A stretch of DNA of 23,134 bases from a virus, in the IMG/VR virus record IMGVR_UViG_3300010354_000690, positions 1 to 23,134 of that record; one strand, given 5' to 3'. Shown in pieces: positions 5,327-23,134 of this stretch; the stretch's first letter is position 1; every line of letters starts with the position of its first letter. The position numbers were made by a program, and so were the translations under genes. The notes below the pieces were generated by a model. The model was not told the origin of the DNA. It ran no database searches and was given only the letters and a program-made list of their open reading frames with translations.

Positions 5327-8116
5327 ATGGCACGCGAACAACTACCTCTCGGGCAGATCCAGCCGGCGGCCCGTCCGGTGTCGAGCTTTGTGCAGCCAGG
5401 GCTGATCGAAACGGCCCGCCCTGCGCAGCCGCAGCAGATCAACCTTTCCAGTGATCGGATCGGCCTGGTGCAGACCGCTGCCGCGCCGAACGTGCAGGGT
5501 TACGACCAAGGCGAGCAGTTGGCTCGAGCACTGGCTCCATTTAGCCAGAACCTCACCAAGCTGATGAACTATGGCGTCCAGCTGTACGCCTCCAATGAAT
5601 ACCAGCAGGGCCAGAACGAAGCGCTGAAGGCCTACACGATCGCCAACCGCCAGTTGATGGTGTCGGCGGACGAATACGCGGCCGAGAACCGCGACGTGGC
5701 CCGACAGGATCCTGTCGCTGGCCTGCTGATGGATCGGGCTAACCCGTTCCGCACGGCCGGCCGTCAGAACCAGCTGAGCAAGCTGGCGTCGGTTGAGATG
5801 CCGATGATCATGCGGCGGGAGTTCAACCAGCGCCGCGCTGATCTGGCGCTGCTGGACCCGGCCGACCCGAAGGTCAATGCGGTCAAGGCCGCCGCCATCG
5901 CCCAGGTGAGCCAGAAGTTCGGCCTGAGCGAGTTCACCCCCGGCTTCATGGACTACGTCCTGCCGCGGATGAACAGCGAGTGGGACAAGATCACCCAGGA
6001 CCAGATCGACGACCACAACAAGTACCTGGATGAGACGGTGCCGCGGATTGCGGCGGCCACCATCTACGGCCGGGTGAAGAAGGCTATGGCGGACGGCGTG
6101 CCGCTGGCCCAGATCGTCGCCAACGAAACCAGCTACCTCGATCAGGAGGCGCGGCGTTTCGGCATCCCTGGCAAGGGCCAGGAGATGAAGGAGACGGCGA
6201 TCAAAAACGCGATTTCCATGGCGATGGATCCGCAGACCGGCGTGATCGATCGGGAGGCGCGGGCCGTCATCGGCTCGATTTTGGTTGGCCCGCCGGACTC
6301 CAACGGCTACCGGCCTACGGCCCAGCAGATGTACGCGCTGGAGATCCTCGAGGCGACTGACAGGACGGACCAGATGAACTACCGCGCCCGCAAGGCGCAG
6401 CAAGAAGCCGTTGGCCAGCGATACGCCGACGAGGTCGCCGGCGCCACCCTTGGCCTGCCGGATGGCCCAGAGAAGGCCGCTCGGCTTGAGCAGATCAGGG
6501 GCCAGTACCAGGGGCAGCTGCCGCTGTCGGAAATGCTCAAGATCGAGCAGAGCACCACCAACGTCACCGAAGACATCACCAGCCGCGGTTTTGCCGATGA
6601 CGCTGGCGCCGTGTTTCTCCAGGAAGCCGACGCCGCTTACGGCAGTGACTGGGATCCTGCTCAATTCGATCGGCTCTTCCAGTTCGAGCTGCAACAGGTT
6701 GCGCCCGAGCGGCGCGCACAGTTCTCCGCCCAGTACGCCGAGCTGCGTCGCCGCAAGGAAACGCAGAAGCAGAACATGCCGGACAGCCTCATCAACGGCG
6801 CCATTGCGCGCCAGGTGAGGGCAAACATTGAGGCCAACTACCCGGACGATGTGCTGGGACAGGCGAATCAGGCCATCCGCCAAGCCCGCAACATCAACGA
6901 GCTCATGGCCGTCAACGACGCCAATGCAGCTGCGTCAGCGGCACGCCAGAACGCGGCCTTCCGCACCGCGATCTACCGCGCCATCGACGCCAAGCGGGCG
7001 GAGCTGAATCGAGACCTGAATCCCGCCGAGCAGCAGCAGGTGATTGATTCCACCTTGACCGGGTTCCAAAAGAACGCACCGGCCACCTGGAAGACGCTGT
7101 TTCCCGGCACCAATGGCCAGCCAAGCACGGTTCCATTTGGGACGACCCGGCCTGGCGCCGATCGCCCTGAACCGCCCAAGCCGCCGCCGGGCCGCCGGGC
7201 GCAGGGAGCACCCACCTTTGGTGTGGCTCAGTTGGACACGATGCCGAGCCGCGAGCAGCGGCTGCAGAACTGGCGCGGCGAGGCCGTGCTCAGCGCATCC
7301 GAAACCGCCCGGCTGATCCCGCTGGCTCTAGGCGGGCAGTCTCTCCCGGCCCCCCTCACCAGGGCGGCCAAGGCAGCCGGCACCAGCCCGCAGCAGTTCC
7401 TGCTCCAGCAGGCGGACTTCTACCCCAACGACATCAAGCTGACGCCGGCTCAGCGCTCGCAACTCGGGAGAAGTGGCCAGCAGGCGCGGGCGACACAGAG
7501 CTACTCGCAGCAGGTGGCCGCCGCGCAGCGCAGCTCGCAATCACCCCTGGCAGCTGCCGGCATGTGGGCCCTGGATGCCATCACCGGCACGGCTCCTGCT
7601 TACGCGGGCTCAATGCAGAACTTCTCCGCAAGAGGCCAGGCCATGGCAACAACATCGGGCTCGACAAACTTGCTTGGCGTTATCAAGGATCTGCGCGGCG
7701 CTAATTCGTTCCGTGGCATCTCGCTGATCAAGAACAAGCGCCCCGGCGACTACCAAAGTCATCCAAGGGAGAACTGGTTCTTTGACTTCAACCCTTCCGT
7801 TGTGCCGCTGGCAATTAAGCGAGCCCAGCGCCTGACAGAACAGGACGTCAATGCCCTTGTCTTTACCGCGTTGACCGAAGCAGGCCCGACCATGCGGGGA
7901 AAACTTGAGGTCGCGGCGAACCTCATCAACAGATCTGCCGTTGCCGGCAATAAACCGATTGTCGACATTGCGAAGGCGCCAGGCCAATACGAGGGGGTTT
8001 TCCGGTACACGCGTGGCCAGGTGATCAGCGCCGCGGAAGGCAGGCGCATTTTCGGTTCCCTTTACGACCAAGTAAGGGACCAAATCAGACAGGCCACCAC
8101 TGGAGGTAAAGGCTGA
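5327..8116 (+). CDS. gp15-like internal virion protein with C-terminal SleB-like cell-wall hydrolase domain
   Basis: This protein of 929 residues matches T7 gp15 (747 residues) in gene order and overall character: a long, polar, largely helical protein that in T7 forms the periplasmic tunnel after ejection. A Pro-rich linker (around 610-625, DRPEPPKPPPGRR) separates the body from a C-terminal extension. The extension (about 840-915) resembles the Hydrolase_2/SleB family: FTALTEAGPTMRGKLEVAAN, LINRSA, then IVDIAKAPGQYEGVF. By family comparison Glu851 in TEAG would be the catalytic glutamate, and PGQYEGV (885-891) fits the conserved PGQF block. T7 gp15 has no such domain; T7 carries a transglycosylase on gp16 instead. 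The start ATG 5327 has GGAGG 10 nt upstream, and the stop overlaps the next gene in TGATG. The core-protein role is well supported; the hydrolase call comes from the motif only. Confidence 0.82.
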   Translation: MAREQLPLGQIQPAARPVSSFVQPGLIETARPAQPQQINLSSDRIGLVQTAAAPNVQGYDQGEQLARALAPFSQNLTKLMNYGVQLYASNEYQQGQNEALKAYTIANRQLMVSADEYAAENRDVARQDPVAGLLMDRANPFRTAGRQNQLSKLASVEMPMIMRREFNQRRADLALLDPADPKVNAVKAAAIAQVSQKFGLSEFTPGFMDYVLPRMNSEWDKITQDQIDDHNKYLDETVPRIAAATIYGRVKKAMADGVPLAQIVANETSYLDQEARRFGIPGKGQEMKETAIKNAISMAMDPQTGVIDREARAVIGSILVGPPDSNGYRPTAQQMYALEILEATDRTDQMNYRARKAQQEAVGQRYADEVAGATLGLPDGPEKAARLEQIRGQYQGQLPLSEMLKIEQSTTNVTEDITSRGFADDAGAVFLQEADAAYGSDWDPAQFDRLFQFELQQVAPERRAQFSAQYAELRRRKETQKQNMPDSLINGAIARQVRANIEANYPDDVLGQANQAIRQARNINELMAVNDANAAASAARQNAAFRTAIYRAIDAKRAELNRDLNPAEQQQVIDSTLTGFQKNAPATWKTLFPGTNGQPSTVPFGTTRPGADRPEPPKPPPGRRAQGAPTFGVAQLDTMPSREQRLQNWRGEAVLSASETARLIPLALGGQSLPAPLTRAAKAAGTSPQQFLLQQADFYPNDIKLTPAQRSQLGRSGQQARATQSYSQQVAAAQRSSQSPLAAAGMWALDAITGTAPAYAGSMQNFSARGQAMATTSGSTNLLGVIKDLRGANSFRGISLIKNKRPGDYQSHPRENWFFDFNPSVVPLAIKRAQRLTEQDVNALVFTALTEAGPTMRGKLEVAANLINRSAVAGNKPIVDIAKAPGQYEGVFRYTRGQVISAAEGRRIFGSLYDQVRDQIRQATTGGKG

Positions 8117-11100: not shown

Positions 11101-12696
11101 TTCGATGAGAAGAAGGCCGCGGGGGTGGTGAGCGACTTCCAGGAACCGCCAGCATTGCCAACGCCTCCGCCAATCGAAATCCCAACTGGAGCCAGCCGCA
11201 AGATCACAGCCCGGACTGACGAAAGCCGGATCGAGGTTGCTGCACAAAGCCTTCAGAACTGGGCCGGCAGCGTCCTGGGCGAGCCGATGTCGCTGGATCA
11301 GGCCATCGCCTTTGTGCGGGGCAAGGGCGAGATCCTCGACCCGGACAAGATCCCTGGCCTGGACATGGACGCCGCCCGGGCCGACAAGACGAAGGGCGTG
11401 CGTGACACGCCTGCCACGGAGGCCGTTGCCCAGGCCTACCGCCAGTTCTATGGCGTCAAGTCGCCGGGGCTACGCGCCATGCAGGCAAGCGGCGCCATCC
11501 CCCCGGGCAGCGGCATCCCCAGCCGCCTGGTCGACGAGTGGCTATTTGAGAAGCCGGATGGCTGGGCCGCATCTGCAGCGCAGCAGTTGATGGCAACCAA
11601 GAAGCCCAAAGACTTCACCAAGCGCGAGGCGTTCCTGGTGGATTTTGCGGCCGAGGTTCGGGACTTTGGCGGCGAGCGGCGCTTCCGCGATGCTTGGCTG
11701 AACAGGCTGGAGGGTGACGCCAACAGTTCCGCCGCAAAAGCGGAAGAGGGCGAGCTGGATGGCTGGCTGGTGACTTATAGCGAGAGGTCTGCGCAATCCC
11801 TAGCCCGCGACGCGACGGCTGAGCTCATGGCCGCCATGCGCGAAGGGATCCGCGTCTCCGGCATCAAGCCAGAGCGCATGAAGGTGCTCGATCAAATCCT
11901 CATCGCGCGCGAGTTCGGGGTCGACGAGGCCTATCAGGCGGCAAAAGCATGGAATCCAGCCGCGGCCAGGCTGATCGAACAGCGCCCCTTCACAGATGCC
12001 GCCCAGTACTTGGACAGCCGGACCGCCGGACTCCGAGTTCCCGTCCAGTATCCAGGACCTCTTCAAGACTCAATTCTTCTTTCGTTGGAGCTACAGCTCT
12101 CAAAATCTTTCGGGAAAGGCCGGGCAGCCTCAGGGCGGCGCGGACGATCCATGGTCGGGGACGCGTACCACGAGGCGTTTCACCGGCTGCAGGAGTTCCT
12201 GTTCCCGACTGAAAAGGCTGCATTGAAGACCCCAGAGGCGAAAGAGGAAATGGTCGCCCTGATCAAAAAGGGAGGCGGCGTCTACCAGCCTGACATGGAC
12301 ATCGACGAGATCCAGGCCGAGGCTTTTGCCGTGTGGGCCTTGCGCAGATATGAGGCGCGGACGAAGGGATCAGCTGTTCAGGCGGTTTTCTCCGCTATCG
12401 GGGAGCTGGTGAACAACGTCGGCGCCGTTGTGCGCGCCATCAGGAAGAAGTCGCCAACCGTTGTTGACGTTTTCGAGGACGCGTGGAGCGGAGCGGTCGG
12501 CGATCGCTCCGACAAGGTTCTTCAGAAACTGGGCAACCCCGACCTGCTTCGCATTGCAGGCGAGGTTGACGCGCAACTTGCCAGGGCTCGCCCTGACATT
12601 GCTCAAAGAGTTCGGGCCGAGGTCGACCGCAGGTATGCGCAAGTCGAAGCCGACCTGGATGATTGGAACAATCGCAACCGCGAAGGAGGCTGCTGA
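8116..12696 (+). CDS. Giant ejection/virion protein with DdrB-like ParB-fold domain and C-terminal zincin motif (polyvalent type)
   Basis: Protein of 1526 residues at the position of the T7 gp16 region. An N-terminal basic tract (AKPKPKPKPKAN, about 36-47) is followed by glycine-rich hydrophobic segments near 176-195 and 275-295, then an Ala/Pro/Glu linker (about 355-375). Around 536-720 a ParB/DdrB-like domain is visible: MKTGDLKIDPARFQFK, then VVNGHNRFALAQAKNIPTLP with N597-G-H-N-R601, followed by a helical part (SGFQLSRLPEDILRAVESGQ). The C-terminal domain contains H1352-E-A-F-H1356 with a possible third ligand in DEIQAEAF (E1398 or E1402), the arrangement of zincin metallopeptidases. DdrB-like ParB and zincin domains are known from the polyvalent proteins of phages and plasmids; phage P1 DdrB is virion-packaged. 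Role in ejection is inferred from position. No N-terminal lytic transglycosylase is seen. ATG 8116 has GGAGGT 8 nt upstream and shares its A with the previous stop. Confidence 0.75.
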   Translation: MPIEYVTDPRTGKVAAKGSLGFGQPVVPERPPAPRAKPKPKPKPKANNFWGVGPGGFSLSKLGNDLRYELNQLATDPLRSVERAASTTMRSTPAGIAFRQGSLGATAATANAVRAGIEWKQRAGGRKQTDYSTSPTGRAVDRVVDHVYRSAGVTPPSQMTPEEKGVDDLRSALTLGVAGGVGVGVGLKALSGVRFVGPAAQTLANAMNPALAKSWQGAVSRLAFDAAVGEAVTTPLDYTATGGSAVSLVDAVLGTKLDPVKPGMAFPDAAAASFIPNVAFGVGLGGAFVGINRARKARSVVQQTVEQPRAELEGAGLVQSDPDTGATAFTPEAAQGQSLREANAALEEKYGISAPEPAAAPEPAIPSQAMEPGGAVMEGDLPTADPGLDPWAIDYDPELPEADVAFSQIKNASDAELLDAVRSGGSVLEELDQRMASRQPLEPDPALSTELNTAPSDSLADPITPFAQQWQQLGKREPQQLLNVLHPEVNPDLAARAQALTGKEWEELTPADAVQTLQAAADDGSIVIPSRLVPGQQMMKTGDLKIDPARFQFKQGTDARGVQRGSSLEGVDRWNTDMEQPVEVWQDPADGEFYVVNGHNRFALAQAKNIPTLPIKEIFAESPEQAKTVGALSNIATGGGRPIDAAWFIKGAGITEPGQLESLGVPLAPDSGNGLSGFQLSRLPEDILRAVESGQIKERQGRLIGGSGADEASMRGAYRYLVENPGTTEGRLKGMLELSKQMTGEAQATGRVDQPDMLKGTDWDQTFNKQMVAVADLADEVATLLKREKRLFSMADANSAALEAKGSRIDKASAQQVAEANARAIDYFQRTWMETGPIRDLLNEGGNRVAAGENKGAIAKQIKNRLVGQLADLMGEQAITRADVVQEDLLAQAPQKLDELLPDDRQAMEMLAIQRAIQNGEVRPPETPIPDLPMDSGVDLMKVQRDLAENTITDDVVQAMADELELRDAYRQLDDAVAQEAEKAARDAEGYDLKTFDEKKAAGVVSDFQEPPALPTPPPIEIPTGASRKITARTDESRIEVAAQSLQNWAGSVLGEPMSLDQAIAFVRGKGEILDPDKIPGLDMDAARADKTKGVRDTPATEAVAQAYRQFYGVKSPGLRAMQASGAIPPGSGIPSRLVDEWLFEKPDGWAASAAQQLMATKKPKDFTKREAFLVDFAAEVRDFGGERRFRDAWLNRLEGDANSSAAKAEEGELDGWLVTYSERSAQSLARDATAELMAAMREGIRVSGIKPERMKVLDQILIAREFGVDEAYQAAKAWNPAAARLIEQRPFTDAAQYLDSRTAGLRVPVQYPGPLQDSILLSLELQLSKSFGKGRAASGRRGRSMVGDAYHEAFHRLQEFLFPTEKAALKTPEAKEEMVALIKKGGGVYQPDMDIDEIQAEAFAVWALRRYEARTKGSAVQAVFSAIGELVNNVGAVVRAIRKKSPTVVDVFEDAWSGAVGDRSDKVLQKLGNPDLLRIAGEVDAQLARARPDIAQRVRAEVDRRYAQVEADLDDWNNRNREGGC

Positions 12697-15600
12697 TGTC
12701 TAGCTGCGAAGAGCTCTACCAAGAGAGACAGCAACTGCTCGCCGAAAAACGAGCACTTGAAGACGCCGGCAACCGCCTTCGCCTGCGGGCCTCACAAGCG
12801 CCTACGCCCGATGGCGGCGATTATCTGGATGGCGTCCCCCAGAATCGGCTTGACGAAGAACTGCGCCGCCAAACAGAACTGCTCGACAACGACCAGTTCA
12901 ACGCCTACATCGAGCGGGCGCTGGAGACAACGCCCCGCGTCGACATCGGTGGCGACCAGCCGATCAACTTCAAGCAGCTGCTGGCCAATTACGACATCGA
13001 GACCGCTGAGGACTACGCCAAGCTCGCCCAGCTGCTGACCATCTCCAACCGGCGCCTGAACCCCCAGGACTACGCCTTCATCACCGAGCAGCTCGGCCAG
13101 GAGCGCATCGCTCAGCTGGTGGTCAGCAGCTACCGGGATCTCAACCTGGACGTGAACAACGTCATGGCCCTGATGGCCAATGACGCCGCAGCGTTCAACG
13201 CCATCCCCGAGCGGATGATCCGCCTGCGTGTGGCCAAGGAGGGCTACCGCGACGCCTACCTCGACAAACTCGATGAGATCAGCGCCGCCATCCGTGCGGG
13301 CGACGTTCCGGCCGACCTGAAGGGTTCAGCGTTCAAGGCCTGGAAGCTGGCCCTGGTCTCCGAGCGCCATTACAGCCTCGCCGGCCGCCGCACTGGCCAG
13401 GCCCTCTACGCCCGCCGCGGCGCAGTGGACAGCCCTGGCGCCATGGACACCGAGCTAGCGGATCAGCTGGCCGACGGCCGCCTGTTTGAGCCCGATGCAC
13501 CGGAAGTCCAAGGCGCGCTGACGATGACGCCAGAGGAGCTGATGCGCGACGACCACTTCGCCCGGGTGGTCGATGCCGTCGATGACGCCAAGGTCAATCC
13601 AGAGCGTGCGGCCGAAACCATCGAGCAGCTCAAGCTCATCACCCAGCTCGATGGCGTCGACCCCAAGAGCCGTCTGGGCGACAAGCAGTGGTTCAACCTG
13701 CTGATGAAGCGCGGCAATGCGCTGGCCAAAGACAGCCAGCTGCTGAACGCGATGACCCAGTTCAAGACGAACGCGGGCAGCAACATCGGCATGTTCTTCC
13801 TGGGCCCCTACCGCCAGGCTTACGAGAACATCGGGCTCCTGACGCCGGCCGGCACCAAGCTCACCCGCGAGCAGTGGGATGCGACCAAGGAAGGCTTTGG
13901 CGTCGCCTGGAACAGCGTCAAGTTCGGCCTGGACATGACGCGGGCATCCGCGCGCGAGCTGTTCACCAGTGCCTTCAAAGAGGGCGTCGCCCCATTCGGC
14001 GGCAACGCCGACACCTACGGCCGGCAGATCTCGGCCAACCAGCAGCTCAAGGCCGAGCTGCAGCAGATGCTCGACATGCCGTTCCGCACGGGCCGCGATT
14101 CCGGCATCTGGTCAATCCCCGAGAACGCCGGCGTCTTCCGCAACAAGATGCACGCTGCCTGGCGGCTGTGGGCGGAGAGCATGGGCGCCAAGGTGCTCAC
14201 GCCCGGCTTCCGCATGATGGCCGGCGTCGACAACACGGCTGGCTACTTCTTCCACCTGTTCAAGATCAAGAACGATCTGGAGATCAGGGCCAGACGCGAC
14301 GGCGCCCAGCTCGGCCTGTTCGATCAACGCAGCCGCGATGAGTGGGTGCAGTCCGAGCTGGAGAAGGCCTTCTATCAGCTGGGGCCGACTGAAGAGAACA
14401 TCAAGAGCTTCCGCCGCGAGAACGGACTGGGGGCTGACGTGACGGACCAAGAGATCGCCGAGCGCATCCTTAACGAGAAGGTCGGCAATACCTACGGCTA
14501 CCCCACGCTCGATACACCTGACTCCCTGGCTGCCGAAGGGTTCTCGCAAGAGATGCGGATGCAGAACCGCCCTGAGGAGGGGACGATCACCGGCAGCGTT
14601 TTCAACGCCATGCAGGCCCTCCGAAAGCACTGGTTCTTCGATCTGGCCTTCCCCTATGTGCAGTCGCCCTTCATGGGCACACTGCTCGACTTCCGCCTTG
14701 CCAGCGACTGGCTGACCGTTCCGGTGCAGGCCGCCTTTGGCAAGAACGCAACGCCAGAGCAGGCGGCCAGAGCGAAGGCCGCATGGGCGGTCTCAGCTCA
14801 ACTGCTTGGCCTGTTCGCCACCCTGGACGCCATGGGTCTGATCATCGGCAACGGCCCGATCGACCTGCGCGAGCGGGAGGAATGGCGGATCGGGCTGCAG
14901 GCTCAGGGCAAGGCGCCAAACACCATCGCCGGCATCCCCTTCCTAGGTGGCATCCCCGTGCTGAACACCTTGTTCCTGTGGAAGGACATCAAGGAGACGT
15001 TCGTGACCGGGGCGTACTCCAAGTACGACCAATACAACGCCCTGGGCGGCGTGATGCAGGTGCTCACCGGCCACCTCATGCGCCAGACCGCCCTGGGTCA
15101 GGTGAATCAGCTGATGGAGCTGTTCCTCGAGCCCAACCGCTCACCGGCCCGACTCCTTGGCTACCTCGGCAGCGGCCAGATCCCGAACATCGGCCTGATC
15201 CGCGACGCCGAGCGCTTCAGCGGGATGCAAAGCCGCAACCTGTTCGCCAGCACCGCACCGAGCGCATCGCAGAACTTCCAGGGCGCTGATGACAGCCCGC
15301 TCGAAAAGATCGAGCGCCAGTTGCGCGAGCTTGCCTACGGCACCCTTGGCCTCACTGGGCTGATCGGTGGCGCCTACAAGGAGCGCGATTGGCTGGGCAG
15401 CAAGATCAAGCTCGCCTGGGGGCAGCAGCTGGCCGACGCTTTGAAGGACCGCTTCTTCCCGCAGGTGTGGCCCGAGGCCGATGAGAAGCTCTATGCCGAG
15501 CTCGACGCCCAGAACCAGCTCAACCCGCCCAGCGCGTTGATGTCAGGCGTCCTCGAGGGCGTTGCCATGAGCGACGACCTGAAGAAGGAGTACAACGACA

Positions 15601-16119: not shown

Positions 16120-18651
16120 GTGCCTGCGACCCCGTTCTCATACCGCCAGTACCCGGGGAATGGGGCGACTGTTGATTTCAGCGTCCCGTTCCCGTACCTG
16201 CTGAAGGCGCACGTCAAGGTCTACCTCAACCTTGTGATCGAGACCGGCGCCTACACGGCGCTGCTGACGGAAGGCGTGGGCTACAACTGGAGCAGTGACA
16301 ATCAAATCCAGGTCACCACTGCCCCGGCGACTGGCCAGCAGCTGACGGTTCGACGCGAAACACCAAACGGATCACAGGTTGTTGTGTGGAGCGACGGCTC
16401 CAATCTGATCTCGGCGGACCTCAATATCTCGGACCTCCAGAACCTCTATGTGGTCCAGGAGTGGGTTGATTACGCGACACGCTCAAACGAGGTAAGCCAG
16501 GAAGCGATCGCAGAGGCGCTGGCAGCGGTTGCCACCGCCAACGCCGCTCTCCCCAAGGCCGGCGGCACCATGACCGGCCCGCTGATCCTCGACGACGATC
16601 CGGCTACCGGCCTTGAGGCTGCGACAAAGCAGTACGTCGATGCGGCTGATGCCGTTCTGCAGGCCGACATCAACACTCGCTGGAACAAGACCTCAGACAG
16701 CATTGATAGCAACGAGGACTGGAGCAGCGCTGACGACAAGATCCCAACCGCGAAGGCTGCTGACGCGCAGTTCAGCACCATCGTTCAGACAAGTACGCCA
16801 TCTGGCTCTTTATGGCCAGTTGGCAAGACATGGCTCCAGAACGACAGCAATAAAACGCTTTCCATCTGGAATGGCCTGGCCTGGCTTGGCGTTGCTTCTG
16901 GTGGAACCTTCACCACTCAGGCCACGGTCATCTACGTCGATTCGCAAAGCGGTGACGACGCCAACGATGGGCATCGGATCATCACGCCGAAGAAGACGAT
17001 CAAGAACGCTGTGCAGTCGGCTCAGGCTGGGGACATCATCAAGGTTGCTCCAGGCGTCTACCAAGAGTCGCTCCCAATCGACATTACGGTTGCCAACCTG
17101 TCCATCGTTGGGGAATCGCAGCGAAGCTGCTTTGTGCATCCCACTCCAGACACAGAGACGGCGACCATGTTCCGCTGCAATAGCGGTACCTATATCGACG
17201 GGTTCACATTCGCAGGACTAAAGGCATCCGGGGCAAGAGGCAGCCATCCGATTGACAATGACATTGCCTATGGCCTGCCGGAGATCCAAGGGTGGGTGGC
17301 TGGCTTTTACCCAGGGTGTTTCATCAGGAAGAGCCCGTTCATCAATAACTGCTCAAACTTCGCTGACAGCGGCATTGACAACAGCAGCTTCGACCCAAAC
17401 AACTACAGCGGCACTGGCGGCGACCTGACTTCCGCCCCATGTGGCGGTGGCGTCATCGTCGATGGCTCGTTGCCTGCGCCCGGCAGCCCACTGCGGTCCT
17501 TCGTGCTCAACGAGTTCACTCAGCTTTGCCTTGACGGGCCCGGCCTGCTGGTATGCAACAACGGCTATGCGCAAGCCGTGTCATTTTTCGGCCTGTTCTG
17601 CCACTACCACGCCAAGGCGCTCAGCGGCGGTCAGATCAACATGGAGGTCGGCACTACCGACTTCGGCCGGTACGGGTTGATTGCTGATGGCAAGAGCAGC
17701 AGTGCCATCTTCACCGCGACGGCCGCTGGGGGAGCATCGGCTGGCAGCGTCACCTTCGCCATCAATGCGCCGTCGGCAAGCGGCACATGGTTTGGCGACG
17801 CGACCAGGCCAGCAATCAACATGCTGGCGCAGATTGGCAGTGACATCTATCCGATCCTGTCATCAACAGCGAATCTGAGCGGCTGGAGCGTCACGATCAG
17901 CCGCCCCAACCCGAGCAACAGGGCTGAGAACCTGGGCCTGATAAGCCCATTGTCCAACGGCCAGACGGTCAGCTTCTTCCTGCGGTCGATGATTTCAACC
18001 GCAAGTCACACGATGGAGTATACGGGCTCCGGCTGTAACTACACGGCGCTTCCGGAAAACGGCGGCGCTCCTGTCGAGTCCAATGAAGCGATCAGCCGAA
18101 ACAACGGGAAGGTTTGGCTGACCAGCACCGACCAATCCGGAAAGTTCAAGGTTGGCGACACGTTTACGGTCGACCAGCAAACTGGATTTGTGAATGTTGA
18201 TCCAAACTCCTATGGAATCAACATTGTCTCGGACCTGACGCCACAGCTTGGTGGCGACCTTGACGTACTAGGCAAGAAGATCACGACCACGCTTGGCAAC
18301 GGTGACATCAACCTTGATGCCCCAGGCGCTGGCTTGCTGAAGCTTGCCGAGTATGGGCTTAGCGCTGCACCAGTCGTTACTCAGCACGACATCGGAGAGA
18401 ACCCGAACCAAGTTCCTCTGAACGCGATGCTGGGCACCGCCTCACTGCAGAACACATCAGCATTCACCATTCAGGATCTTTACATTGATTCTGCTGTAGC
18501 GGTATCTGCCCTGCCTGCTGGTCCTGTTGGGCGTGTATTTCGCGTGAATAATGCAAGCTCACCTGCTGTTGGTTCCACTGTTGTTGGCGGTGGAGCCGCT
18601 AATGCCCTTGTCTGGTACAACGGCACCAACTGGACTGTTCTCGGAGTTTAA
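16120..18651 (+). CDS. Tail fibre with T7 gp17-type N-terminus and pectin-lyase-like beta-helix
   Basis: Protein of 843 residues. Residues 1-130 match the T7 fibre attachment domain: FSYRQYPGNGATVDFSVPFP, YLLKAHVKVYL, and RRETP...VVWSDGSNLISADLNIS, as in gp17, which anchors the fibre at the tail-head joint. Next comes a phage tail collar-like repeat (GGTMTGPLILDDDP ... ATKQYVDAA, about 147-177). From residue 268, a pectin-lyase-like right-handed helix begins (VIYVDSQSGDDANDG, TPKKTIKNAVQSAQAGDIIK and VAPGVYQESLPI), a fold common in polysaccharide-binding or -cleaving spikes; no catalytic set was identified. The end contains TPQLGGDLDVLGKKITT, a phrase typical of marine phage fibres. The start is GTG 16120, the only start codon in this frame after the TGA at 16096; its ribosome binding site is weak. 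Confidence 0.88.
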   Translation: MPATPFSYRQYPGNGATVDFSVPFPYLLKAHVKVYLNLVIETGAYTALLTEGVGYNWSSDNQIQVTTAPATGQQLTVRRETPNGSQVVVWSDGSNLISADLNISDLQNLYVVQEWVDYATRSNEVSQEAIAEALAAVATANAALPKAGGTMTGPLILDDDPATGLEAATKQYVDAADAVLQADINTRWNKTSDSIDSNEDWSSADDKIPTAKAADAQFSTIVQTSTPSGSLWPVGKTWLQNDSNKTLSIWNGLAWLGVASGGTFTTQATVIYVDSQSGDDANDGHRIITPKKTIKNAVQSAQAGDIIKVAPGVYQESLPIDITVANLSIVGESQRSCFVHPTPDTETATMFRCNSGTYIDGFTFAGLKASGARGSHPIDNDIAYGLPEIQGWVAGFYPGCFIRKSPFINNCSNFADSGIDNSSFDPNNYSGTGGDLTSAPCGGGVIVDGSLPAPGSPLRSFVLNEFTQLCLDGPGLLVCNNGYAQAVSFFGLFCHYHAKALSGGQINMEVGTTDFGRYGLIADGKSSSAIFTATAAGGASAGSVTFAINAPSASGTWFGDATRPAINMLAQIGSDIYPILSSTANLSGWSVTISRPNPSNRAENLGLISPLSNGQTVSFFLRSMISTASHTMEYTGSGCNYTALPENGGAPVESNEAISRNNGKVWLTSTDQSGKFKVGDTFTVDQQTGFVNVDPNSYGINIVSDLTPQLGGDLDVLGKKITTTLGNGDINLDAPGAGLLKLAEYGLSAAPVVTQHDIGENPNQVPLNAMLGTASLQNTSAFTIQDLYIDSAVAVSALPAGPVGRVFRVNNASSPAVGSTVVGGGAANALVWYNGTNWTVLGV

Positions 18652-18654
18652 CCA

Positions 18655-20559
18655 ATGACCATCAAACATCTCTACCCTGACACCCGCCCAACCCTTGACC
18701 TTAAGTTTGCCAAGGATAAGAAGCTAGATCCACGCATCACCTTTTCTCGTGCATCGTCTGGCACGCATGTGGATGCTAATGGTGTCATCCAAAGTGCTGC
18801 AAGTGGTGTGGCACGATTTGACCATAACCCAACGACGAGGGAGAGTCTTGGATTGTTGGTGGAGGAGGCGAGGACGAACTCGCTGACGTATAGCGAGCGG
18901 CTTAGTGATGCCTCGTGGACAGCACTAAATGCCACTCTGACGCCTAATGCTTTGGCCGCACCCAACGGTCTATTCGTGGCTGCACAGCTAACTTCAAACG
19001 GGACCGTTGGCGCTCAACGCATTGGGAAATCACCAACAGCCACAGGCAGTTTGTCGTTTTCAATCTACGCAAAAGCAGGAAGTGCTCAATATCTTCAAAT
19101 TTTGCAAGCTACAGATGTAAATGTATTTGCCAATTTTGATCTTTCTCTGGGTGTCGTAGGCACTAAAGGATCGAGTGCAGCCGTTTCTATCGCTAGCGCA
19201 GGCAATGGGTGGTACAAGTGCGCGGTGTCGGCAACGGTCGCGTCCACTGGGTTTTGGTATGTCTATATTGTTCCGTCGAGCAGTGCCTCATATGGGCAAA
19301 CTTACATCGCTTCGATCAATTCACTTTATCTTTACGGCCCCCAACTAGAAGCCGGATCCTTCCCCACCTCCTACATCCCAACCCCTGCAACCTTCACCAG
19401 TCGCGCCTCTACTGCCACGTACTACGACGCTAACGGTGTTATCCAAACGGCAGCGAGTGGTGTTGCACGGAGCAATGCGTTCTTCCCCGATAGCAGCGGT
19501 GTGATGAGACCGGCTGGGTTGTTGTTGGAGGGGGCGGGGACGAACTTGTTGACGTATAGCCAGAATTTAACAACATGGTCGCCTATTAACATGTCAGTCT
19601 CCAGTAACGTTTCCGCAGCCCCAGACGGAACGACAACTGCTGGCAAGATTATCCCCAACACATCTGACACTATTCACGTCCTCTATCCCGCCAACACAGT
19701 TAGCAGCATTACTGGTACTTACACGGTAAGCGTATTTGCCAAGGCAGATGGGTATAACTTTGTATGGCTTAGCCTTGATGGTGCCAGCGGAGACGGCTTG
19801 CTTTCTGGCGGCGCAGGATTCAGCTTGGTTGATGGCACTTATCAGCTCGGAAACGGCACTGTCTCAGCATCAAGTCAGAAACTAGGCAATGGGTGGTATC
19901 GACTTTCTTTAACTGGGACAACTACGTCTACGGTCACAGCAAGTCCGTATGTTGCTCCTGCGACCGGGAAAGCCTTCAGCAACGTCTATTTTGCTGGCAA
20001 TGGTACATCTGGGGTTTTAATTTGGGGGATGCAGTTTGAGGCTGGATCCTACCCCACCTCCTACATCCCCACCACCGCCAGTACCGTCACCCGTGCTGCT
20101 GATGCTTCCACCAGTTCTACGGTGACAAGAAGTGCGGATGTGGCAACGATTACGGGGAGTAATTTTAGTAGTTGGTATAACCAGAGTGAGGGGACTTGGA
20201 TTTCTACTGTTAGCAGCGACGGCTTTGCATTTACTGTTTCGTCTAACGCAGATAACAGGTACTATCTAAATAGAAACAGTGGGAATGGATACCTGATGAA
20301 ATCCTCTGGCGTTGACCAGGCAATCTTTGGTTTAGGGCAATTCTCAAAAGCTGCCATTGTGTATGACACAAATTATGCAACGGTGTCCAGCGACGGCGTA
20401 GTACAAACTGCAGATACGTCGGTAGCACCTCCAGTTGTTGATAGCCTAAAGATAGGTATGGGAGTCAATAATGACTTTCAAGGTTCCAAGAAAATCTCCC
20501 GCATCACCTACTACCCAACCCGCCTCAGTAACGCCATCCTGCAAACCATCACCTCTTGA
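18655..20559 (+). CDS. Second adhesin: duplicated carbohydrate-binding-like modules plus lectin-like C-terminus
   Basis: Protein of 634 residues that begins 3 nt after the fibre stop. It contains two copies of a module of about 230 residues. Copy 1 (about 24-242) runs from FSRASSGTHVDANGVIQSAA to GPQLEAGSFPTSYIP; copy 2 (about 248-472) runs from TSRASTATYYDANGVIQTAA to QFEAGSYPTSYIP. Each has a LLVE-A-TN-LTYS motif and a beta-sandwich-like middle with GNGWY. A third part (about 485-634, VTRSADVATITGSNFSSWYN to ISRITYYPTRLSNAIL) looks like a concanavalin-type lectin domain. Such modules occur in tail spikes of cyanophages and other environmental phages. Host-receptor binding is inferred. The coding DNA is much less GC-rich than the structural genes upstream, suggesting recent exchange. 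ATG 18655 has GGAG 8 nt upstream. Confidence 0.75.
   Translation: MTIKHLYPDTRPTLDLKFAKDKKLDPRITFSRASSGTHVDANGVIQSAASGVARFDHNPTTRESLGLLVEEARTNSLTYSERLSDASWTALNATLTPNALAAPNGLFVAAQLTSNGTVGAQRIGKSPTATGSLSFSIYAKAGSAQYLQILQATDVNVFANFDLSLGVVGTKGSSAAVSIASAGNGWYKCAVSATVASTGFWYVYIVPSSSASYGQTYIASINSLYLYGPQLEAGSFPTSYIPTPATFTSRASTATYYDANGVIQTAASGVARSNAFFPDSSGVMRPAGLLLEGAGTNLLTYSQNLTTWSPINMSVSSNVSAAPDGTTTAGKIIPNTSDTIHVLYPANTVSSITGTYTVSVFAKADGYNFVWLSLDGASGDGLLSGGAGFSLVDGTYQLGNGTVSASSQKLGNGWYRLSLTGTTTSTVTASPYVAPATGKAFSNVYFAGNGTSGVLIWGMQFEAGSYPTSYIPTTASTVTRAADASTSSTVTRSADVATITGSNFSSWYNQSEGTWISTVSSDGFAFTVSSNADNRYYLNRNSGNGYLMKSSGVDQAIFGLGQFSKAAIVYDTNYATVSSDGVVQTADTSVAPPVVDSLKIGMGVNNDFQGSKKISRITYYPTRLSNAILQTITS
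18748..20070 (+). repeat. Tandem duplication of a module of about 690 bp inside the adhesin gene
   Basis: The boundary motif EAGS-PTSYIP recurs exactly 230 codons (690 nt) apart, with glutamate codons at 19348 and 20038. At DNA level the 18-mer CCCCACCTCCTACATCCC is identical at 19362-19379 and 20052-20069. The head of the module, DANGVIQ-A-SGVAR, is also partly conserved at nucleotide level (18772-18815 and 19430-19474). Between these anchors the copies have diverged strongly. Confidence 0.8.
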
Positions 20560-20564
20560 ACACC

Positions 20565-20882
20565 ATGACTACTTACTTTCTCCGCTTTACCGACGAAACA
20601 GAGGCTCAAACCGCCCTTGCTGCTGCTGGCATCTACGTCGAACCCATCGGCAACAACCCCGGCTACTACAAGCAAGCTGACATCGGTTGGGCATTTGATC
20701 CCATCGGCACCATCACTGAAGGTGGCGTCTATGACCAAGTAACGGGTGAGGAGCTGGTTCCTCCGACCGTTCTAGATGGTTGGCACGCTAACTATGCAGG
20801 CGATGTGCTTCCTGATGAGCTTGTGCCGTTTGCGCTTAACCCTGACCCCGTGACGCCTTACAGGGTCTTCGCTGGGGTGTAG
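20565..20882 (+). CDS. Small adhesin-associated protein, unknown function
   Basis: Protein of 105 residues whose ATG lies 5 nt after the adhesin stop, with no clear ribosome binding site, so translation probably relies on reinitiation. A TTG at 20556 would give a version 3 residues longer. The protein starts MTTYFLRFTDETEAQTALAA, contains IGWAFDPIGTI and a DGWHANYAG turn, and ends in a PVTPYRVFAG strand. Short proteins of this design (FLRF-D...A...A; DGWHVN; P-RV-A ending) often follow tail-fibre genes in tailed phages. They may be fibre-assembly helpers or minor tail proteins, but I know of no proven function. Base composition returns gradually toward the phage average in this gene. Confidence 0.6.
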   Translation: MTTYFLRFTDETEAQTALAAAGIYVEPIGNNPGYYKQADIGWAFDPIGTITEGGVYDQVTGEELVPPTVLDGWHANYAGDVLPDELVPFALNPDPVTPYRVFAGV

Positions 20883-20956
20883 CGAGCTAGCCAGCCTGGT
20901 CAGCGTTTGCGCCCCCGGGTGGCCCCGTTACTCTGCGGGGGTGCAGACGTCTTGAC

Positions 20957-21544: not shown

Positions 21545-21861
21545 ATCACTGTCTTGGTTTGGTGGTTGGGGTCGCTTTCATCCAGACCATGGGCCAGTGG
21601 GTCAAAACTGCTCGCAGCGTCAACGACCGGCTCCACGCCTGAGCGTTTGCTGGCATCAGCCGCCTCGAGGGATGCGATCCAGCTGTCGAATGACTCCCGC
21701 ATGGGGATCTTCGCGGGCAGCTTGAGCCAGCGCCTGACCTCTTTCGGACAACGCAAGAACACGCTGGCGCCCTTGTCGTATGCGATGAAAAAACGTCCGT
21801 TCCAGTCCTTTCCTGTCTCAACCGTTGTCGTATGGCTGAGATGCAGTCGTTCGCGCTTCAT
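21541..21861 (-). CDS. 106-residue protein of unknown function in the lysozyme operon
   Basis: The start ATG (21861-21859) overlaps the lysozyme stop as ATGA, so the gene is cotranscribed with the lysozyme and probably translationally coupled. The protein begins with a beta-rich part (LHLSHTTTVETGKDWNGRFF followed by IAYDKGASVFLRCP), then a basic helix EVRRWLKLPAKIPMRE and a tryptophan helix (FDSWIASLEAADAS), and ends in an acidic disordered tail. No membrane segment, signal peptide or enzyme motif is seen. It could be a lysis modulator or an unrelated accessory protein. The overlapping plus-strand frame 21554-21874 is judged a shadow because it has no conserved-looking features or gene coupling. 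Confidence 0.6.
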   Translation of the reverse strand: MKRERLHLSHTTTVETGKDWNGRFFIAYDKGASVFLRCPKEVRRWLKLPAKIPMRESFDSWIASLEAADASKRSGVEPVVDAASSFDPLAHGLDESDPNHQTKTVI

Positions 21862-23042
21862 GGCTTACAGGTGAGATACCAGCCGCCACTGCCGCCAGGC
21901 ATCCATCGCGGATTCCAGTTCTTGCGGCTGTAGATCATCCCGGCGCCTTTGGTGTTCTTGGCGTAACCGCCCTGCACCAGCAAGGCCTCGCCATTGGGAT
22001 CGTTCTGGATCCAGGCCACATCCGTGTAGCCGATCACTACGGTCCAGTGGCCGCCGCCCCGGGGCGCGCTCACAGGGCCTTGATGCAGCCAGCCAACAGC
22101 GACGGGCCGGCCGGCATCAACCTCGCGCTCCAGGTCTTCCTGCGTGCCGTTCGTGTGGAAGTCGGCCTTGAGGCTCAGGGAACGCAGCGCAGCGAGTTGA
22201 GCTTCGGCTGATGTGGTGTCGCCGTATTTGGCGCGAACAGCGTTGTAGGCGTCGTCGTTCGCCACCTTGCCCCAGAACATTGCGAGCATGGCGCAGCTCG
22301 ACGAGAAGCACTCGCGGGCACCCTGCTGGCTCTTGTTATCGAGCTGGCTCTGCCACTTCACGTTGAGCAGGGTGGATTTCTTGGCGAGGGGTGTTGTGTT
22401 GCCCTGCCACAGCTGCCCTTCGGCGCGGCGGCGGCGCAGCAGGCCTACCTCCACGTTGGTGCCTGGGTTGCGGTAGAGCTCCAGTGCGGCTGGCACCTTG
22501 TCCCATGTCTTGTCGCGCAGGCGGCGGCTGATGGTCTCGAACCCAGCAGCGCCCATGAACCCAGGGCCAAGGTTGTAGGCGAAGCTGATCAGGGCACACT
22601 GCTGCCCCTGGCTCATCTCCTGCCAATGGGGGATTGCGCCGCGCAGCTTCTTGGCGATGGATTCGACCTCACCCTCGAGCAGCTCGTTGGCATCCACGAC
22701 GGTGATCTGATCTCCGCGTTGCACTTTGCGCCCATCCCTGTACCGGGTGGTGCCGTAGCCGATCGTCCAGGGATCGCCGCCGCTCAATGGGTCGGGGTAT
22801 GCGCTCAGATGACATCCCTCGAAGTCTTTGATCAGCTTGACGGCCGGCGCATAGCCCGCTGTTGAACCAGCATCACGCCAGTCCTGGACCCATTCGGCGG
22901 ATTCACACAGCAACCCAGGGTCTGCTTCTTTGATGTGCCGCCCGAGCTTCTTGATCGCATCTTTCTGATGCTCAAGCCCCTTGTAGTTATCCCAGAACTG
23001 CAGCCATCGCGGATCAGTGAACTGGACTTCCTCGATCGGCAT
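21858..23042 (-). CDS. Endolysin: GH24 lysozyme fused to C39-like cysteine peptidase domain
   Basis: Protein of 394 residues on the strand opposite to all structural genes. Residues 1-60 are a small helical module (WLQFWDNYKGLEHQKDAIKK). Residues about 65-212 form a phage-type lysozyme (GH24) that cuts the peptidoglycan glycan chain: Glu75 in DFEG, Asp84 and Thr93 in PWTIGYGT follow the T4 lysozyme E-D-T pattern with a three-residue insertion, and SFAYNLGPG plus LLRRRRAEGQLW complete the fold. Residues about 225-394 resemble peptidase C39_2: LNVKWQSQLDN, the putative nucleophile Cys245 in ECFSSSCAM, His332 in GHWTVVIGY, Asn347/Asp348 in NDPNG. This domain may cut peptide bonds in the wall or bind substrate. 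The ATG start (23042-23040) has GGAG about 13 nt upstream; TTG 23078 would add 12 residues but overlap the divergent gene. No signal peptide is seen, so a holin is expected. Confidence 0.9.
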   Translation of the reverse strand: MPIEEVQFTDPRWLQFWDNYKGLEHQKDAIKKLGRHIKEADPGLLCESAEWVQDWRDAGSTAGYAPAVKLIKDFEGCHLSAYPDPLSGGDPWTIGYGTTRYRDGRKVQRGDQITVVDANELLEGEVESIAKKLRGAIPHWQEMSQGQQCALISFAYNLGPGFMGAAGFETISRRLRDKTWDKVPAALELYRNPGTNVEVGLLRRRRAEGQLWQGNTTPLAKKSTLLNVKWQSQLDNKSQQGARECFSSSCAMLAMFWGKVANDDAYNAVRAKYGDTTSAEAQLAALRSLSLKADFHTNGTQEDLEREVDAGRPVAVGWLHQGPVSAPRGGGHWTVVIGYTDVAWIQNDPNGEALLVQGGYAKNTKGAGMIYSRKNWNPRWMPGGSGGWYLTCKP

Positions 23043-23071
23043 GATGGGGAAAGCTCTCCACCCATGTAAAC

Positions 23072-23134
23072 GTGGCAAACCACGATCTCCGAGAGGTCTT
23101 GGAGGACATCCACGCCGAAGTGGCGCATGGAATC
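23072..23134 (+). CDS. N-terminus of probable small terminase / DNA maturase A (T7 gp18-like), cut by window edge
   Basis: Twenty-one codons of a rightward gene are visible from GTG 23072: MANHDLREVLEDIHAEVAHG plus one more residue. An in-frame TGA at 23042 excludes other upstream ATG or GTG starts. The amphipathic helix LREVLEDIHAEVAHG resembles the N-terminal helix of small terminase subunits in T7-like cyanophages (pattern LE-IH-A-A---L), and the location after the fibre and lysis genes matches the T7 gene 18 position. No good ribosome binding site is visible. The opposite-strand reading of the same DNA (from 23128 leftward) is considered the shadow, but the evidence is short, so the call is tentative. 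Confidence 0.45.
   Translation, partial: MANHDLREVLEDIHAEVAHGI

Follow-up and report, generated by a model that had tools for sequence, protein, structure and literature searches.

Conserved in-frame DNA linkers as probable sites of core exchange in the modular adhesin of a T7-like phage

Recombination at conserved motifs in gp38, the adhesin of T-even phages, is said to change specificity, as Tetart et al. reportedly described in 1998. Whether phages exchange host-range parts by homologous recombination at linkers or by random joining followed by selection is an old question, and few natural cases are resolved to the base. As set out in part of PMC12892980, gp38 carries hypervariable segments between glycine-rich motifs. 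In six genera of lytic coliphages, conserved DNA motifs flank the receptor-binding domains of tailspikes and have been proposed as recombination hotspots (PMC10408124). Marine phages contain metaviromic islands in which, according to part of PMC3909814, tail fibre and carbohydrate-binding genes vary between close phages. The spike and tail fibres of RcGTA bind capsule (PMC7296036, PMC10218006), and an N-terminal Ile/Leu-Gly repeat peptide of its fibre plugs into the spike base (PMC7296036).

The adhesin gene considered here lies in a window of 23,134 nucleotides, the whole stretch of viral DNA that was analysed. Judged by annotated gene content, the window is the structural half of a T7-like podovirus genome, with a capsid fragment, tail tube A and four large virion proteins encoded upstream of the fibre gene, a nozzle (PF25675, E 3e-226) and an endolysin at 21858-23078 on the opposite strand to the adhesin. 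The nearest named phage is S-SRP02, a freshwater Synechococcus phage (66% in the nozzle; PMC8790148); contigs 98-99% identical in the nozzle are present in IMG/VR, and the host of the virus is probably to be sought among freshwater cyanobacteria. Relatives are referred to below by L-numbers, which designate loci, mostly on metagenomic contigs. In the endolysin, a phage lysozyme domain (aa 84-220) is combined with a C39-like peptidase domain; the middle part of the protein (248 aa) is absent in the close relatives L095, L099 and L104 while both ends are kept at 73-83% identity, so the lysozyme domain has been cleanly gained or lost. At 7630-8115 and 11177-12834, in internal virion protein genes, most close relatives lose their DNA homology to the window and regain it at similar positions.

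The adhesin gene runs from 18655 to 20559 on the forward strand, as first delimited, and encodes 634 aa comprising two modules and a C-terminal beta-rich domain. The preliminary description saw two copies of a single module, and the modules are indeed homologous (aa ~28-243 and ~245-473; 35% identity over 230 columns, E 1e-39; an alignment score 29 sd above shuffles; two full HMM domains), the internal repeat not being reported by default self-BLASTP of the adhesin. They are not near-copies, however. Core 1 (18880-19347, forward strand; 156 aa, pLDDT mostly 71-92) and core 2 (19546-20037, forward strand; 164 aa, pLDDT up to 96) are hypervariable predicted beta-sandwiches that are 27% identical to each other, whereas each of them averages 31-35% against 126 other cores (31% for core 1). 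Because this identity is not above that of random cores, a recent tandem duplication is rejected, and the two cores resemble two pool members placed in tandem. The same two-module layout is found in L002, L195, L197 and L221. A lectin-like end had also been suggested, and here support extends as far as a separate C-terminal beta-rich domain in the structure model (20074-20559, forward strand; ...SSWY...RITYYPTRL...). In L002 this domain is replaced by long leucine-rich-looking repeats, the C-terminal half of the adhesin (L002:10001-13141) consisting of tandem units of ~72 nt (LTSFPLIDTSSGTNF...).

The genome scan for modules used an alignment of seven sequences. A 75-aa core in L313, L328 and L355, considered as a possible motif artefact, proved to be real, if short. 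In L214, L242, L264, L291, L352, L388, L010, L476-L478 and L480, two or three adhesin genes with modules lie side by side; whole-gene tandem arrays therefore exist besides intragenic modules. Module homologues were also met on contigs titled Parcubacteria, Paceibacterota and Saccharibacteria (L431, L435, L440, L430 and L436), which may be prophages or binning errors.

Profile comparison matches the adhesin to the PHROG 5939 tail protein in three stretches (E 4.8e-121), and phmmer matches residues 24-297 to the RcGTA head spike fibre Rcc01080 (E 1.2e-28); baseplate proteins of E217 and Pa193 and a tail fibre gp17 are further sequence matches, and a Pfam search of the protein gave no family match. 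The structure model is of moderate quality (mean pLDDT 69.5, pTM 0.40), with the linkers below 50 pLDDT and unresolved, and Foldseek recovers Pa193, E217 and, weakly, CBM22 and CBM6 carbohydrate-binding modules. The protein is best read as an adhesin of the type of PHROG 5939 and the RcGTA head spike, in which homologous recombination at DNA linkers creates diversity across phage types. From sequence and model, it probably sits at the tip of the fibre encoded upstream and binds a surface glycan, glycan binding there being likely because RcGTA fibres bind capsule, beta-sandwich cores are predicted and Foldseek matches include CBMs.

A pair of linkers of 30-36 nt frames each core, and their silent sites are kept across phages with a GC content of 34-67%. 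On the forward strand of the window, core 1 is enclosed by left linker 1 (GGATTGTTGGTGGAGGAGGCGAGGACGAAC, encoding GLLVEEARTN; 30 nt, 18850-18879), recognised by its codon conservation and by the clustering of breakpoints in relatives, and right linker 1 (GAAGCCGGATCCTTCCCCACCTCCTACATCCCAACC, encoding EAGSFPTSYIPT; 36 nt, 19348-19383); core 2 is enclosed by left linker 2 (GGGTTGTTGTTGGAGGGGGCGGGGACGAAC, encoding GLLLEGAGTN; 19516-19545) and right linker 2 (GAGGCTGGATCCTACCCCACCTCCTACATCCCCACC, encoding EAGSYPTSYIPT; 20038-20073). The 18-mer that had been noticed at the module boundaries is real: identical DNA, CCCCACCTCCTACATCCC, lies at 19362 and 20052 within the two right linkers and codes for PTSYIP at the end of each module. 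A second like stretch is found near each module start (18849-18897 and 19515-19563, 86% over 49 nt). The left linkers are G-rich, and GGTGGAGGAGG fits a two-layer G-quadruplex motif; the right linkers are C-rich and partly complementary to the left ones.

Over 33 adhesins found by protein anchors, silent-site identity is 0.25-0.40 almost everywhere, with peaks of 0.51 at aa 61-75 and 0.57 at aa 231-245 that coincide with the two edges of the hypervariable core; the block at aa 31-45, whose protein is equally conserved (aa identity 0.64), has a silent identity of 0.33. The fraction of identical codons is 0.59 in the left linker and 0.70 in the right, where 0.31-0.33 would follow from codon usage in these genes; this is conservation of DNA beyond protein constraint in the sense of PMC10408124. 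That expectation ignores relatedness, and the flanking block (0.43 against 0.32) is therefore the fairer yardstick. In phages of 33-66% GC whose loci were retrieved by way of the other linker or by protein alone, GC3 is 0.73-0.82 in the left linker and 0.32-0.43 in the core, and in the block before the left linker it tracks the phage, from 0.42 to 0.76. Exact linker DNA occurs in viral DNA of 34-67% GC, in at least 119 stretches for the right linker and in 43 for the left, almost always within a module ORF. Even in module genes of T4-like cyanophages, with GC3 of about 0.2, most right linkers read ACC TCC TAC ATC CCC ACC. Against L002, fourfold sites in the fibre body are close to saturated where the protein is 60-80% identical, and they are mostly 70-100% identical towards the end of the fibre gene, whose last ~80 codons keep their silent sites, as well as near the linkers and over a large part of the adhesin start.

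It had been proposed that near-identical boundary DNA could allow swapping or a change in copy number, and in relatives both replacement and module gain are seen; the window's own adhesin gene, whose nearest relative is only ~50% identical, shows no swap event. Outside the core, and with both adhesin ends included, L290 and L307 agree at 93-95% over 5.3 kb, and their cores are unrelated; the breaks lie 3 nt past the left linker and 12 nt short of the right. Further core replacements between linkers separate L316 from L337, L328 from L378 and L196 from L220, the first four loci forming one set with a common left flank and differing cores. L281 has an extra module of 526 nt relative to L369, to which it is 99.4% identical over 3 kb upstream; the insert begins at the shared ACGACGAAC, and the 3' part of the gene is then 83% identical. 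Likewise, L321 has two modules and L364 one, with upstream DNA 97% identical. Module number, the suggested check, ranges from 1 to 3 among relatives and differs even between near-identical phages.

Core similarity is also decoupled from that of the flanks, which directly answers the question raised as a phylogeny of modules against tail-tube genes, the cores being too divergent for such a tree. The sole stretch common to L369 (GC 0.48) and L367 (GC 0.63) is 754 nt at 93% and spans one module, and among 74 pairs with at least 90% identity in left-flank DNA the cores are nevertheless below 45% in 80%. For protein-anchored loci, related and hence non-independent pairs included, similarity blocks start within 30 nt of the right-linker start in 58% of cases and end within 30 nt of the left-linker end in 24%, against 5% in each case for random landmarks. 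Cultured isolates behave in the same way. The T4-like cyanophages ACG-2014j US103 and US23 share 324 nt at 96% ending one base before the left-linker end, beyond which the core is unrelated, and between US23 and S-WAM2 a common block of 433 nt at 85% stops exactly at the left linker's last base. Near-isogenic phages and cultured isolates alike lose similarity at the final bases of a 30-nt linker. L419, on a linker-bearing contig of 54 kb, has a T4-type capsid gene and a sheath gene, and a T7-type nozzle is present in 7 of the 25 linker-bearing contigs tested, others having neither nozzle nor T4-type markers; the pool therefore crosses at least two tail types.

A coarser exchange surrounds the adhesin. 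The T7-type fibre gene directly before it (16120-18651, forward strand) begins with a particle-binding domain of T7 type (16120-16460; PF03906, E 8e-27), which is conserved in all close relatives and closes with the shared motif DLQNLYVVQE. DNA similarity ends at 16460/16461 in 10 of 10 close relatives readable there and is back at 20904-20925, just past a small ORF, in all five loci that reach the far side; outside the segment, backbone DNA of the border loci is 77-96% identical to the window. Between these borders most close relatives carry unrelated genes, and L099 a one-module adhesin with the small ORF. The adhesin had been described as a probable exchanged host-range module: it does lie within an exchanged segment, but the unit is not the adhesin alone, being the distal fibre, adhesin and small ORF together (16461-20904). 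The distal fibre (16462-18651, forward strand) has a collinear homologue in L002, a T7-like phage of 42% GC (66% aa identity over residues 204-843). L002 and L003 hold the nearest relative of the whole cassette (66% aa identity in the fibre, 50% in the adhesin, 44% in the small ORF), with a fibre N-domain and C-terminal repeats that differ from those of the window; cultured phages yielded no near relative of the cassette. The small ORF (20556-20882, forward strand; 108 aa, phrog_18574, E 1e-9) overlaps the adhesin stop, has homologues after the adhesin in L002, L008, L099 and L106, and could possibly encode an adhesin chaperone.

The four GC values quoted for 60-mers (30.0, 46.7, 65.0 and 51.7%) are exact, and GC does begin to fall late in the fibre gene, whose last ~80 codons have a GC3 of 0.45. 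From 0.79-0.86 in core virion genes, GC3 declines to 0.69 in the fibre and 0.50 in the adhesin, and the small ORF has 0.59; within the adhesin the four linkers, at 0.75-0.90, stand out as GC-rich between cores of 0.44-0.48. The reading of low GC as the mark of one foreign donor finds no support, since adhesin GC3 is near-constant across phages (mean 0.46, sd 0.07) while backbone GC3 in the same phages ranges from 0.26 to 0.86 (mean 0.51, sd 0.22), with an adhesin-on-backbone slope of 0.19. Adhesin GC is below the genome in the window's phage and above it in low-GC phages. Such a composition is as expected for genes that move too often to reach equilibrium, or for a compositional constraint on the cores.

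The whole is probably best explained by a modular adhesin whose cores are exchanged at DNA linkers, together with coarser exchange of the entire segment. Each module would be a conserved frame around a hypervariable beta-sandwich core, bounded by a left (30 nt) and a right (36 nt) linker that are kept near-identical, silent sites included, across a wide phage gene pool. In co-infecting phages, phage or host recombinases would pair the linkers, and a crossover between them could replace the core, add or remove a module or change the C-terminal domain while keeping frame and fold; on the coarser scale, distal fibre, adhesin and small ORF would be exchanged behind the conserved fibre N-domain. 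The length of the linkers (30-36 nt) matches the minimal pairing segments quoted in part of PMC3945230 (23-27 nt for Red beta, 31-34 nt for RecA). Among the window ORFs examined there is no recombinase, and one close relative has only a marginal T7 SSB-like match. Comparison between sequences is what brings out the borders, the silent-site conservation of linkers, replacement and gain at linkers and the breakpoints in isolates; from these we infer the enzymology of homologous recombination and a linker origin for the window's own cores.

The silent-site conservation could instead come from a constraint at the DNA level. Linkers kept for a DNA or RNA function of their own (translation pausing, structure or protein binding), with cores swapped by illegitimate recombination and selection for reading frame, would account for the G-rich left and C-rich right linkers, for a predicted left/right duplex energy of -21.4 kcal/mol against -13.8 for codon-resampled versions, and for the retention in 89 of 111 left linkers of AGG, usually a rare Arg codon. 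Yet the modules are not independent, pairing left_i with right_j yields an equal energy (-21.7), and Leu-codon and Ser-codon variants, compared by eye, do not co-occur; pairing of left and right linkers as an RNA or DNA stem was rejected, the raised duplex energy standing without independent support. Moreover, homologues outside the pool (L005, L010, L427, L435, L445 and S-WAM2 gene 2) encode the same linker residues with other codons, which rejects a universal DNA constraint and means that linker DNA is not required for function; this account is unlikely. Hypervariable cores in a fixed frame might also arise in place by very fast mutation, through diversifying selection or a diversity-generating retroelement, but in near-isogenic phages the core gives way to unrelated sequence, by whole-segment replacement with indels, next to silent sites more than 90% identical, and phages that are unlike elsewhere can have one core in common at 93% DNA identity. 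An informal look noticed neither an adenine-specific pattern nor a template repeat, and in-place divergence hardly merits belief. Chimeras joined at short repeats during metagenome assembly come to mind because the loci are mostly metagenomic contigs with breakpoints at short near-repeats, and L003 and L423, from one sample, could be a graph fork. The same breakpoints in ACG-2014j US103, US23 and S-WAM2 nonetheless rule out assembly artefacts as a general cause; the partners of the main pairs are from different samples, linkers mostly of 30-40 nt are spanned by ordinary reads, and the silent-site and GC3 patterns are not producible by chimeras, which makes this explanation very improbable.

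A single transfer of the window's cassette from one low-GC phage, its composition recording the donor, would agree with the occurrence of the nearest cassette, that of L002/L003, in a T7-like phage of 42% GC and with the fall of GC3 along the fibre gene. Adhesin GC3, however, is 0.41-0.55 in several phages with backbones of 0.26-0.34 and 0.45-0.61 at 0.82-0.86, and therefore follows no donor genome; one low-GC donor is unnecessary and was rejected as sufficient. The pieces also differ in age, since against L002 the silent sites of the fibre body are saturated but the linkers are conserved, and we think such a transfer quite unlikely. It is doubtful, too, that the protein is a virion decoration, a head fibre or baseplate part, in place of a host-range adhesin at the fibre tip. 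Among solved structures, its nearest homologues are the RcGTA head spike fibre and wedge/triplex proteins of PB1-like baseplates, but the gene stands directly after the fibre gene in the window and many relatives and, in T4-like cyanophages, after a structural-protein gene; capsule is bound by the RcGTA fibre itself (PMC7296036, PMC10218006), and the window protein lacks the RcGTA N-terminal repeat peptide.

Exchange of cores at linkers is thus probably how these viruses keep changing their host-recognition part. More tentatively, and well short of probable, the likeness of the linkers may be kept by selection for exchangeability itself and not by exchange alone, with T7-like, T4-like and other aquatic, mainly cyanobacterial, phages sharing a core library that would be the homologous-recombination counterpart of a cassette system. 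Because the linkers are marked by silent-site conservation, the idea is testable by recoding them. If it is true, adhesin cores would pass among T7-like, T4-like and other phages, with consequences for host prediction from sequence.

Among known systems, RcGTA Rcc01080 (6tb9) and PHROG 5939 show clear sequence homology and the common frame RAS..T...TA...RFD...LL.E..TN; Rcc01080 has one module where the window adhesin has two, and in place of the Ile/Leu-Gly repeat peptide the window protein starts with MTIKHLYPDTRPTLDLKF. Pseudomonas phages E217 (gp45, 8env) and Pa193 (gp46, 9b45) have a homologous module (E 3e-14 and 1e-14; Foldseek E 5e-7 and 8e-9) in contractile-tail baseplate parts whose architecture differs outside it. 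As with T-even gp38, a separate adhesin gene lies right after the fibre gene and variable segments are framed by conserved motifs; unlike gp38, the window adhesin sequence has no glycine-rich motifs or polyglycine helices, and both the motifs and the fold differ (a polyglycine sandwich there, predicted beta-sandwich cores here). The metaviromic islands are whole-gene islands, and the part of PMC3909814 that bears on them describes no linker mechanism. Of shufflon features, the linkers are partly complementary and the modules are not independent, with no recombinase among the window ORFs examined; among the same ORFs, from the structural half of the genome, no reverse transcriptase or template repeat is annotated.

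The principle is already known from gp38 and from the coliphage tailspikes (PMC10408124), in which short DNA motifs likewise lie on both sides of the receptor-binding part and are common across genera, and exchange breakpoints at the motifs are found here in relatives, not in the window gene itself. In the tailspikes a noncoding terminator serves as the downstream motif, and the motifs are on average 63-81% identical, whereas both linkers here are in-frame and repeated per module, their silent sites are kept across genomes of 34-67% GC, and swaps as well as module gain can be observed between near-isogenic phages. New, then, are the in-frame linker pair of each module with its conserved silent sites, swaps resolved at the base level, module gain and sharing across phage types.
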